A stretch of DNA of 64,000 bases from Dolomitihabitans soli (GTDB taxonomy: Bacteria; Actinomycetota; Actinomycetes; Streptosporangiales; Streptosporangiaceae), in the NCBI RefSeq assembly GCF_022213955.1, contig NZ_JAKNTW010000009.1:124001-188000 (forward strand). The letters are read 5' to 3'. The position numbers and the translations under genes are program-made. The notes beneath the pieces were generated by a model that was not told where the DNA came from, did no database searches, and saw only the letters and a program-made list of their open reading frames with translations. Below are positions 37,016-40,760 of this stretch, piece after piece (position 1 is the first letter of the stretch; the number at the start of each line of letters is the position of its first letter).

Positions 37016-37112
37016 GGCCGCGTTGCGACCATGCTCATCAAGCCGCGAAACTGTCTCACTGGTCGACTACATGTGGGGAAGTGGGCCGGCCGCGAGAGCA
37101 AGGGGGTGCGCG

Positions 37113-40100
37113 GTGGACGGAGAGTCGCCGGGTTTCGCGGCAGGTTTCGAACGCACCCCGCCGCACAGCATCGAGGCGGAACAGTCGGTGCTGGGCGGCA
37201 TGCTGCTGTCCAAGGACGCCATCGCCGACGTCGTGGAGGCACTGCGCTCCGACGACTTCTACCGCCCGGCCCACCAGATCATCTACGACATCGTCACCGA
37301 CCTGTACGGCAGAGGCGAGCCCGCCGACGCCATCACCGTCATGGACGAGCTGCAGAAACGCGGCGAGTTCGGCCGGGTCGGCGGCGGCGCCTACATCCAC
37401 ACCCTCACCGCCGTCGTCCCCACGGCGGCCAACGCCGGCTACTACGCGAAGATCGTCAGGGAGCAGGCGATCCTGCGCAGGCTCATCGAGGCCGGCACCC
37501 GCATCGTCTCCTACGGCTACGGCGGGCAGAACGAAGAGGTCGACGAGCTGGTCGACCGCGCCCAGGCCGAGATCTACAAGGTCACCGAGCGCCGCACCTC
37601 GGAGGACTATCTCCCGCTCGCCGACATCATGCCCGGCGCCCTCGACGAGATCGAGGCCATCGGCAGCCGATCCGGCCAGATGGTCGGCGTCCCCACCGGC
37701 TTCCAGGACCTCGACTCGCTCACCAACGGCCTGCACCCCGGCCAGATGATCGTCGTGGCGGCCCGGCCGGCGATCGGGAAGGCCCTCGCGCTAGACACGC
37801 CGCTGCCTACCCCCACCGGCTGGACGACCATGGGCGAGGTCGCGGTCGGTGATCATCTGATCGGCGCCGACGGGAAGCCCACCCGGGTCGTCGCGGCGAC
37901 CGAGGCGATGCGCGGGCGGCCCTGCTACGAGGTCGAGTTCAGCGACGGCACGGTGATCGTCGCCGATGCCCGGCACCAGTGGCGGACCAGCGCGCGCGTG
38001 AGCCGCCGGCAGCCGTCCCGTTCCTGGCCCGCCGAGTCGGCCGCCCGCGTCACGCAGGCCTCCGTGGCGTCGAGCAGCGGGGTGCGTCTCTCGATCGCGA
38101 GGGAGTTCCGTCCTGTTCTCCGCACCGTGGAGACGGGGATCGGGCCGATGTCCTCCGCCCTGGCCGGCCCTGGCCGGCCCGACGGTTCCCGGCGGCTCCT
38201 CGAAGCACCGGTTCTCCGGCCGGAGAACACCGCCACGACGGCGATGCACGGCGAGATCGTGACCACCGAGGAGATCGCCGCCACCCTGCGCCGCTCCCCG
38301 GCCGACGCCCGGCCGAACCACGCGGTCGGGGTCGCGATGCCGTTCGATCTGGACGAGCAAGACCTACCTCTGCCGCCGTACGTCCTCGGGATATGGCTCG
38401 GCGAAGGTCATCGCGAGGACGCGAGGTTCACGACCGTCGACCCGGAGATCGTCGCCAATGTCGAAGCGGAGGGTCTGTGGGTCACCCGTGCCGGCGACGG
38501 CGTCACCCACTCCATCGGGTTCCCCGGTCCGGAGGGTCCGGTGTCGCGTGGCTGTGCGGTCTGCGAGGCGATGGTCGCTCCCCGGTCGGGTGATCCCGTT
38601 CCGTCGCCCGCCTGCGCCGACTGCGGGGACCGGCCTGACACCGTGCGGGCGACCCTGCGGTCCTTGGGGGTTCTCGGTGACAAGCACATTCCGCGGCGAT
38701 ACCTGCGTGCCTCCGAGGAGCAGCGGAGGGCCCTGCTGGCCGGGCTGCTGGACACCGACGGCTACGTGAGCCGTGCCGGCCGCATCCAGTTCGCCGTGAC
38801 GAACGAGCGGCTCGCCAACGACGCCCTGGAGCTCGTCCTGAGCCTCGGCTACCGGGCGACCATGCGGACCAGGGCGGTCGAGGGCCGGGCCGCCGGCTCC
38901 TCGGTCTGTCACATGATCGATTTTACGGCGGCGGAGACGGTGTTCCGTCTTACGCGCAAGGCCGTCCGGCAGGCGGCCACGGCGCGCCCCGCGAGCCTGG
39001 TCCGGTACATCGTCGACGTCCGGGCCGTGCCCTCGACGCCGGTGCGATGCGTCGAGGTCGACAACGCCGATCACATGTACCTGGCGAGCAGGGCCTGTAT
39101 ACCGACGCACAACAGCACCCTGGGCTTGGATTTCGCGAGATCTGCCGCTATTAAGCACGGAATGACCACCGTCGTGTTTTCGCTGGAAATGTCGCGAAAT
39201 GAGATCACGATGCGCCTGTTGTCCGCGGAGGCGCGGGTGTCACTGCAGTCGATGCGGTCCGGTCTGATGAACGACGACGACTGGACCAGGCTGGCGCGCC
39301 GGATGAGCGAGGTCGCCGAGGCGCCGCTGTTCATCGACGACTCGCCCAACATGTCGATGATGGAGATCCGGGCCAAGTGCCGCCGGCTCAAACAACGCAA
39401 CGACCTGCGCTTCGTGATCGTCGACTACCTCCAGCTGATGAGCTCGCCGAAGAAGACGGAGAGCCGCCAGCAGGAGGTCTCCGAGATCTCCCGGGCCATG
39501 AAGCTGCTCGCCAAGGAGCTTGAGGTCCCGGTCATCGCGATCTCGCAGCTCAACCGTGGCCCCGAGCAGCGGACCGACAAGCGGCCCATGGTCAGCGACC
39601 TGCGTGAGTCCGGCTGTCTCACGGCGGCGACCCGGATCCTCCGCGCCGACACCGGCGCGGAGGTGTCGATCGGCGACCTGCTGGCGAGCGGTGAGCGTGA
39701 CGTCCCGGTCTGGTCGCTCGACGAAGGGCTCCGGCTGGTCCCCCGCACCCTGACGCATGCCTTCTCCAGCGGGGTCAAGGAGGTCTTCCGGCTGCGGCTC
39801 GCCTCCGGGCGGGAGATCGAGGCGACGGCCAACCATCCGTTCCTGACCTACGACGGCTGGCGTCCGCTGGGAGAGGTCCAGGCCGGCACGCGACTGGCGG
39901 TCGCCCGCCACGTGCCCGCGCCCCTGGAGACCGGAGAAGTGTGGTCGCCGGAGGAGATGACCGGCGACCCGGCAGGCGTGCCCCCGGGCGTCTTCGCCCT
40001 GCCCAAGCACCGGATCGCCCGCTTCCTGCGCCACCTGTGGGCGGCCGACGGCCGGATCCGGTGGGACGAGACGACGGGACAGGCCCAGGTCCACTACGCG

Positions 40101-40760
40101 TCGGCCGGTCGCCGGCAGGCCGACGACGTCGCCCGTCTCCTGCTGCGTTTCAACGTGCTGGCCCGGGTCGGGGAGTCCGGGAGCGGCGACCGCCGGCACC
40201 GGTTGTCGATCGACGACGCCGAGAACCAGTTGCGCTTCCTCGACGGCGTCGGCGAACGATCGGCCGAAGCCGCCCGGTGCACGGCCGGACTGCGCGCGGC
40301 GAGGGGCGGCGCCGACCGCGACGCCGTACCCGGTGCGGTCTGGGATCGGGTCGGTGGCGCCCTCGCGCATCACCCGTCCTCGACGGTGAGGCACGCCCGG
40401 CAGAGCCTCGGCGAGGTGGCGGCGATCCTGGACGACGCCGAGTTGGAGATGCTCGCGACCAACGATGTGTTCTGGGACGAGGTAGCCTCGGTTCAGAGTC
40501 TGGGAATGCAACCCGTTTACGACGCCACGGTCCCCGGCACTCATAACTTCGTGGCGAACGGCATCAATGTCCACAACTCGATCGAGCAGGATGCCGACAT
40601 GGTCATCCTTCTGCACCGCGAGGACGCATATGAGCGGGAATCGCCGAGAGCCGGTGAGGCAGACCTGATCGTGGCCAAGCATCGTAACGGCCCAACAGCC
40701 ACCGTTACGGTCGCTTTTCAGGGCCACTACAGCCGTTTCGTCGACATGGCTGCACACTGA
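37113..40760 (+). CDS. dnaB: Replicative DNA helicase DnaB with two inteins
   Basis: The 1215-residue precursor consists of a 450-residue helicase interrupted by inteins at residues 224-667 and 835-1155. Extein parts: the N-terminal domain (TPPHSIEAEQSVLGGMLL), linker and Walker A (ARPAIGK/S, split by intein 1); Walker B and helicase motifs (FVIVDYLQLM, VIAISQLNRGPEQR); and the C-terminal SIEQDADMVILLHRE and LIVAKHRNGPT. Splicing of both inteins is required for an ATPase. I chose the GTG at 37113, preceded by AAGGGGG, because actinobacterial DnaB starts just before FERTPP. In-frame readings further upstream are unlikely. DnaA-box-like sites lie upstream. Confidence 0.97.
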   Translation: MDGESPGFAAGFERTPPHSIEAEQSVLGGMLLSKDAIADVVEALRSDDFYRPAHQIIYDIVTDLYGRGEPADAITVMDELQKRGEFGRVGGGAYIHTLTAVVPTAANAGYYAKIVREQAILRRLIEAGTRIVSYGYGGQNEEVDELVDRAQAEIYKVTERRTSEDYLPLADIMPGALDEIEAIGSRSGQMVGVPTGFQDLDSLTNGLHPGQMIVVAARPAIGKALALDTPLPTPTGWTTMGEVAVGDHLIGADGKPTRVVAATEAMRGRPCYEVEFSDGTVIVADARHQWRTSARVSRRQPSRSWPAESAARVTQASVASSSGVRLSIAREFRPVLRTVETGIGPMSSALAGPGRPDGSRRLLEAPVLRPENTATTAMHGEIVTTEEIAATLRRSPADARPNHAVGVAMPFDLDEQDLPLPPYVLGIWLGEGHREDARFTTVDPEIVANVEAEGLWVTRAGDGVTHSIGFPGPEGPVSRGCAVCEAMVAPRSGDPVPSPACADCGDRPDTVRATLRSLGVLGDKHIPRRYLRASEEQRRALLAGLLDTDGYVSRAGRIQFAVTNERLANDALELVLSLGYRATMRTRAVEGRAAGSSVCHMIDFTAAETVFRLTRKAVRQAATARPASLVRYIVDVRAVPSTPVRCVEVDNADHMYLASRACIPTHNSTLGLDFARSAAIKHGMTTVVFSLEMSRNEITMRLLSAEARVSLQSMRSGLMNDDDWTRLARRMSEVAEAPLFIDDSPNMSMMEIRAKCRRLKQRNDLRFVIVDYLQLMSSPKKTESRQQEVSEISRAMKLLAKELEVPVIAISQLNRGPEQRTDKRPMVSDLRESGCLTAATRILRADTGAEVSIGDLLASGERDVPVWSLDEGLRLVPRTLTHAFSSGVKEVFRLRLASGREIEATANHPFLTYDGWRPLGEVQAGTRLAVARHVPAPLETGEVWSPEEMTGDPAGVPPGVFALPKHRIARFLRHLWAADGRIRWDETTGQAQVHYASAGRRQADDVARLLLRFNVLARVGESGSGDRRHRLSIDDAENQLRFLDGVGERSAEAARCTAGLRAARGGADRDAVPGAVWDRVGGALAHHPSSTVRHARQSLGEVAAILDDAELEMLATNDVFWDEVASVQSLGMQPVYDATVPGTHNFVANGINVHNSIEQDADMVILLHREDAYERESPRAGEADLIVAKHRNGPTATVTVAFQGHYSRFVDMAAH
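37782..39113 (+). mobile_element. Intein 1 of DnaB (Walker A site), class 3 signature, with LAGLIDADG endonuclease
   Basis: This 444-residue intein is inserted between Lys and Ser of the Walker A motif (AIGK/S). It starts with Ala (ALALDTPLPTPTGWTTMGEV), not Cys or Ser, so it lacks the N-terminal nucleophile. It carries the class 3 WCT set: Trp two residues after the block B His (ADARHQW), Cys in block F (PVRCVEVDNADHMYLA) and Thr before the final His-Asn (PTHN/S). An endonuclease domain is present: LGIWLGEG (first motif, Glu for the usual Asp) and LLAGLLDTDGYV (second motif, intact), with Cys pairs (CAVC, CADC) between. Confidence 0.92.
39615..40577 (+). mobile_element. Intein 2 of DnaB (DLRESG/S site), class 1
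   Basis: This 321-residue intein lies between DLRESG and SIEQDADM. It has the canonical N-terminal Cys1 (CLTAATRILRADTG), block B TANHPFL with the TxxH motif, block F VYDATVPGTHNFVANG, and the terminal NVHN followed by Ser. The central part contains FLRHLWAADGRI, a divergent LAGLIDADG-like motif, and a weaker second one (FLDGVGERS). The endonuclease may be degenerate. Confidence 0.92.

Follow-up and report, generated by a model that had tools for sequence, protein, structure and literature searches.

A class 3 intein with a LAGLIDADG domain in the DnaB P-loop of Dolomitihabitans soli

The replicative helicase gene dnaB of Dolomitihabitans soli carries a 444-aa class 3 intein between the Lys and the Ser of the DnaB P-loop, as indicated by its residues, its homology and its predicted fold. 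The intein occupies positions 37782..39113 (+ strand) of the window, by which we mean the whole 64,000-nucleotide stretch of DNA that was analyzed. It almost certainly belongs to the family of class 3 inteins known from actinobacterial DnaB P-loops, bears a LAGLIDADG domain and is predicted to splice by the class 3 route. This chemical type is uncommon but already known, and a layout with two inteins has been published for Mycobacterium smegmatis. What is most worth a specialist's time is the invariance of a second cysteine, Cys48, in the DnaB inteins compared and the covariation of positions 48 and 62 among class 3 inteins.

The intein begins with GCC (Ala1) at 37782, preceded by GGG AAG (Gly-Lys), and ends with AAC (Asn444) at 39111-39113, followed by AGC (Ser+1). 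The insertion site, ARPAIGK/S (the slash marks the junction), lies exactly inside the Walker A motif. A first-pass annotation had placed an Ala1 intein here, splitting Lys from Ser, and its frame, ends and residues proved accurate. The N-terminal splicing domain (residues 1-72, 37782..37997, + strand) includes Ala1, Cys48, Asp62, His65 and Trp67, and the C-terminal splicing domain (residues 408-444, 39003..39113, + strand) includes Cys423, Thr442, His443 and Asn444. Position 1 is Ala, not Cys, Ser or Thr. Alignment with class 3 DnaB inteins puts Trp67 at B:12, Cys423 at F:4 and Thr442 at G:5, before His443-Asn444, the correspondence on which the annotation's class 3 (Trp/Cys/Thr, WCT) assignment depended. 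In phmmer comparisons, the solved class 3 inteins 6rix, 6riy and 6bs8 matched with E-values of 1.8e-45 to 3.7e-43 and with WCT in register, over residues 1-81 (1-73 for 6bs8) and 400-444 (400-443 for 6riy). Together with the DnaB homologues and the predicted fold described below, these alignments bear out the class assignment.

The Pfam intein splicing model PF14890 and TIGR01443 were presumably built largely from class 1 inteins. At E-values up to 1, PF14890 gave no match to the class 3 intein, which also stayed below the cut-off of TIGR01443 (13.9; cut-off 15.6); these two and TIGR01445 miss or under-score it, yet find a class 1 intein in the same protein. When run over the whole genome, TIGR01445 and TIGR01443 found that second intein and not the class 3 one, and thus these models under-report class 3 inteins. 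A weak match to TIGR01445, an intein N-terminal model, was also seen at G000:C77:94940-95164 (23.7 bits; cut-off 24.5).

The host gene (37113..40760, + strand, TGA stop included) matches PF00772, PF03796, TIGR00665 and PRK07773; we chose the GTG at 37113 as its start, within a single open frame that spans 37023-40760. Besides the class 3 intein, which the first-pass annotation had found, dnaB holds a second intein of 321 aa (39615..40577, + strand) that the annotation had missed. This intein is of class 1 type with a LAGLIDADG domain, lies in DLRESG/SIEQD and is detected by TIGR01445 (44.6 bits, cut-off 24.5), TIGR01443 (also above its cut-off), PF14890 and PF14528. It has Cys1, TANH as the TxxH of block B, a VHN end and Ser+1. 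Removing both inteins by script leaves a continuous DnaB of 450 aa with ARPAIGK/STLGLD restored. A single DnaB match was reported in the organism's own genome (10.8 Mb, estimated to be 99.99% complete) when 11 of 22 first-look candidates were scored. Of eight neighboring ORFs compared with family models, six belong to ordinary families (amino acid permease, MatE transporter, fatty acid desaturase, phosphoesterase, solute-binding protein and SGL), and the other two gave no family match.

Among characterized systems, M. smegmatis DnaBi1 (6bs8) shares with the window intein the gene, the P-loop site before Ser, Ala1, Cys48, Asp62, His65, Trp67, the block F Cys, Thr, His-Asn and Ser+1, and residues 1-67 are numbered identically in the two (Cys48, Asp62, His65 and Trp67 included). 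M. smegmatis DnaB likewise has a second, class 1 intein in a later DNA-binding loop (PMC6195587). DnaBi1 is, however, a mini-intein of 139 aa without an endonuclease, whereas the window intein has 444 aa with a LAGLIDADG domain; the latter also has an extra Cys439, whereas the sole non-catalytic cysteine of DnaBi1 is Cys48 (PMC8557812). The Mycobacterium chimaera DnaB-1 intein (6rix, 6riy) is class 3 with the same residues (E 1.8e-45) and, unlike the window intein, is a mini-intein, of 145 aa. Among the best 80 of 557 stretches from the scan of named genomes described below, LAGLIDADG-bearing class 3 inteins in the DnaB of Streptosporangium, Nonomuraea, Microbispora, Actinomadura, Micromonospora, Nocardia and other genera have the same site, splicing residues and Cys48; most of them keep the motif Asp, whereas the window intein has Glu in the first motif and smaller accessory parts.

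An AlphaFold2 model of the class 3 intein (46 sequences) has a mean pLDDT of 84.4, with values of 95-98 over residues 1-70, mostly above 90 over the endonuclease core and low over residues 71-160 (blocks 51-71) and 251-280. The model superimposes on 6bs8_C with Z 22.6 and rmsd 1.2 over 125 residues (64% identity), and on both domains of PI-SceI (1ef0_A) with Z 27.1 and rmsd 3.6 over 326 residues; structures were also compared by Foldseek. PI-SceI, the VMA intein, and other endonuclease inteins thus show the same two-domain fold, HINT plus LAGLIDADG, but share only 10-19% identity with the window intein and sit in different host proteins. PI-SceI follows class 1 chemistry.

The same splicing residues recur widely at this site. 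A search of 60 genomes (that of the window and 59 relatives) yielded 30 loci, of which 25 have a class 3 intein with Cys48, Asp62, His65, Trp67, the block F Cys, THN and Ser+1 at the same position; Ala1 was part of the search pattern for these 25, and the five loci left out were inspected separately. Those five have either an empty site (L022, L023, L028 and L030) or a class 1 intein (L025). From 557 stretches confirmed by scanning named genomes we used the best 80, a choice that under-samples decayed copies, and all 80 have Ala1, the same splicing residues including Cys48, and the GK/S site. The closest named genera among these best 80 of 557 are Sphaerimonospora, Streptosporangium, Microtetraspora, Nonomuraea and Microbispora, all Streptosporangiaceae. 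The two sets share four proteins, for example that of Streptosporangium pseudovulgare (L002), and give 101 distinct DnaB P-loop class 3 inteins (25 loci and the best 80 of 557), in which the WCT residues are invariant. Because the same residues and site recur in 25 of 30 loci of the 60-genome search and in 80 of the best 80 of 557 stretches, chance is no serious alternative; with one open frame and every residue in register, we rejected chance or a frameshift artefact as the source of the intein.

Presence is patchy within the family. Out of 36 same-family genomes, 19 have the class 3 P-loop intein, 14 have an empty site (confirmed as uninterrupted GKS in each of the 14), one (G001) has a class 1 intein and two (G014 and G035) are undecided. 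The relatives found in the genome search span all stages from 501 aa with both LAGLIDADG motifs to a mini-intein of 134 aa. A survey of 1701 class 3 inteins reported LAGLIDADG motifs in 82.5% (PMC7891396), and the full-length intein is therefore the common form. The class 1 insert in G001 (L025) is a Cys1 mini-intein in the very Lys/Ser P-loop site used by the class 3 inteins of its relatives, and the second site of this dnaB is likewise occupied by a Cys1 insert. Beside the class 3 intein, a Cys1 intein occupies the second site in 17 of the best 80 of 557 stretches, with 62 empty and one undecided.

By homology, we infer the following course of splicing. One translated precursor would carry both inteins. 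In the first, the block F Cys423, assisted by His65 and Thr442, would attack the peptide bond between Lys and Ala1; the N-extein would be transferred to Ser+1, Asn444 would cyclize, and an O-N shift would restore Lys-Ser in the P-loop. The second intein would leave by the ordinary class 1 path, and normal 450-aa DnaB would appear only after both excisions. In DnaBi1, Cys118, the counterpart of Cys423, is the first nucleophile and its replacement by Ala abolishes function (PMC6195587), and a Cys-His-Thr triad has been described for the M. chimaera intein (PMC7664689). The helicase would presumably be inactive before splicing, which Kelley et al. (2018) considered reasonable to assume for DnaBi1 (PMC6195587). 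Since this is the only dnaB reported by the genome search, splicing should be intact.

A class 2-type reaction would have Ser+1 directly attacking the N-terminal junction, with Cys423 as a bystander, and class 2 inteins, too, lack a first nucleophile (PMC7664689). Trp67, Cys423 and Thr442 are nevertheless all present and do not vary across all 101 distinct inteins (the best 80 of 557 stretches included), and the nearest solved relatives are class 3 (PMC6195587); we rejected a class 2 intein on these two grounds and regard it as wholly improbable. Very unlikely too, if marginally less so, is an intein dead or crippled in splicing, of the kind published as the decayed class 3 pseudogene Arth_1007 of Arthrobacter FB24 (PMC3196547). 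Erosion of the endonuclease would fit such a fate, but the catalytic residues are all present and the splicing domain is constrained, with dN/dS of 0.08-0.15 against six relatives (synonymous sites near saturation), and the pseudogene reading was rejected for these reasons. The dnaB that holds the intein is moreover the only one reported for this genome, whose estimated completeness is 99.99%, and the DnaB helicase is essential.

For the endonuclease, the first-pass annotation had described one intact LAGLIDADG motif and one with Glu for Asp, and this reading held: the first motif is YVLGIWLGEG (residues 200-209, 38379..38408, + strand, model helix 199-208), with Glu208 in place of Asp, and the second is LLAGLLDTDG (residues 318-327, 38733..38762, + strand, model helix 312-326), which PF14528 covers with 34.7 bits (cut-off 22.5). 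The two model helices each end in an acidic residue, Glu208 and Asp326. Glu at the first acid occurs in three of the 101 distinct inteins (window, L012 and L061; the best 80 of 557 included), while several others of the 101 lack the first motif altogether. Among the best 80 of 557, in which decayed copies are under-sampled, Asp is found at the first motif in 75 and at the second in 74, and a recognizable motif in 80 and 79, respectively. I-DmoI has a natural catalytic glutamate, Glu117, and PDB entry 5a0w is its E117A variant; Glu in the first motif alone need not make that motif dead. The parts of the literature searched offered no usable statement that Glu works in a LAGLIDADG motif.

Compared with relatives whose endonucleases are fuller, the window intein has in-frame deletions in the linker and in a Cys-rich module. 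The linker (residues 73-158, 37998..38255, + strand) contains an eroded accessory part of the endonuclease, as judged from in-frame deletions, identity, dN/dS and pLDDT. A Cys-rich, zinc-finger-like module with up to four Cys pairs lies between the LAGLIDADG motifs of fuller relatives (L002, L003 and L005); it is absent in L006 and L008, and partly lost in the window intein, where two residual Cys-x2-Cys pairs remain (C258/C261 and C278/C281, 38553..38624, + strand). The linker identity of 0.390 is the lowest of seven inteins compared (0.462-0.535 for the others), and that of the Cys-rich stretch, 0.357, is undercut only by L008, which lacks the module. Splicing domain (identities 0.866 and 0.878) and core are average among the seven. 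Pairwise dN/dS between the window intein and six relatives, with synonymous sites near saturation (pS about 0.5), is 0.33-1.13 for the linker and 0.19-0.43 for the endonuclease core, against 0.16-0.51 and 0.13-0.31, respectively, for the relatives among themselves.

We read this as early decay that appears to have started in the accessory parts, with a core that is at most mildly relaxed and is predicted to be folded and constrained. Since the accessory parts are eroding, mobility of the intein is probably weakened or being lost. One could instead hold that the endonuclease is fully active and the intein a currently mobile parasite, its accessory losses and Glu208 being neutral. The modest excess of core dN/dS over that of the relatives, the prediction of both motif helices at pLDDT above 90, the Asp/Asp motifs that L006 and L008 keep without a Cys-rich module, and the distribution among same-family genomes (intein in 19 of 36, 14 empty) all speak for this possibility. 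The lowest identity of the seven and the raised dN/dS in linker 73-158, the partial loss of Cys pairs and the rarity of Glu (three of the 101, among them the best 80 of 557), which in L012 accompanies a broken second motif, speak against it, and we consider full activity rather unlikely, if a serious contender to early decay.

Cys48 (37923..37925, + strand) is the counterpart of the redox partner Cys48 of DnaBi1, in which a disulfide between Cys118 and Cys48, induced by H2O2, stops splicing (PMC6195587). That paper called Cys48 non-conserved, yet all of its substitutions abolished splicing. In our comparison Cys48 is found in 101 of 101 distinct DnaB P-loop class 3 inteins (25 of 25, and 80 of 80 in the best 80 of 557), and it is present in 6bs8 and 6rix as well. 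The window intein thus has a second cysteine where DnaBi1 has its redox partner, and under oxidative stress a Cys48-Cys423 disulfide could form and halt splicing, as homology with DnaBi1 suggests. Because Cys48 is present in all 101 (the best 80 of 557 included), redox-gated splicing of the window intein is, by this analogy, a fair prediction. The redox step was derived from one mini-intein, and the window intein has a long insert between the halves of its splicing domain and the extra Cys439.

Beyond DnaB, Asp62 tends to go with Cys48. Among ten class 3 inteins from phages and plasmids, those with Asp62 have Cys48, and those with a different residue at 62 also differ at 48. Among 95 rows (window included), 73 have Cys48 and Asp62, six Cys48 only, four Asp62 only and 12 neither, and an enlarged set of 246 inteins divides into 177, 10, 16 and 43, respectively, rare pairs being over-represented because two later viral scans were on purpose seeded mainly with inteins lacking Cys48 or Asp62. 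The enlarged set derives from 326 aligned inteins, all WCT, after removal of those at least 90% alike; both sets exclude L204, L206 and L208 as near repeats of L117 and L120, and three viral scans with single proteins gave seven loci in all. On a FastTree phylogeny of 105 columns built without the two positions, a home-made two-trait likelihood test preferred dependence (LR 24.8, 4 df, p 6e-5), with many of the rare pairs falling in one part of the tree. Cysteine at position 62 is found in 23 of the 59 inteins without Cys48 and in one of the 187 with it (Fisher p 2e-15; tree-corrected p 0.014), and 36 of the 246 have cysteine at neither position.

By corrected mutual information, the pair 48-62 ranks ninth among pairs more than four apart and 15th of all 5671, while among pairs more than four apart 1-421 ranks first and 48-421 third. 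The pair 48-62 is thus one part of a coupled active-site group. Positions 1 and 421, the latter two before the block F Cys, are the most strongly coupled pair in the splicing domain at that spacing. We tentatively propose, as a possibility rather than an expectation, that in class 3 inteins the pair 48/62 evolves as a unit (Cys48 with Asp62, otherwise often Cys62 with Ser, Ala, Thr or Leu at 48), is coupled with positions 1 and 421 and forms part of the recipe beyond WCT. We take the block position N3:7 to be position 62. Class 3 inteins were described as having no conserved residue at N3:7, and an outlier intein as having Ser65 at N3:7, its N-terminal part containing just one further cysteine, a non-conserved one (PMC7891396); by this description, the outlier would fit the 48/62 pattern. 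When a class 1 intein was equipped with WCT alone, cleavage predominated and little splicing occurred (PMC7664689). No statement of the 48/62 covariation was found in the literature searched, which includes the available text of PMC6195587, PMC7891396, PMC7664689, PMC8557812 and PMC7360933.

The window supplies a further example of a DnaB interrupted by both a class 3 and a class 1 intein, here outside the mycobacteria and with an endonuclease that appears to be in partial decay. The 48/62 pattern offers a direct mutational test of what class 3 inteins need besides WCT; if true, the pair would account for the loss of splicing by DnaBi1 upon each Cys48 substitution made (PMC6195587). From the invariance of Cys48 we predict that DnaB maturation is under oxidative control far outside Mycobacterium. 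As every DnaB P-loop class 3 intein examined has this cysteine, the redox brake that was proposed to act on replication in M. smegmatis would, if true, reach much of the actinobacteria, endonuclease-bearing inteins included.
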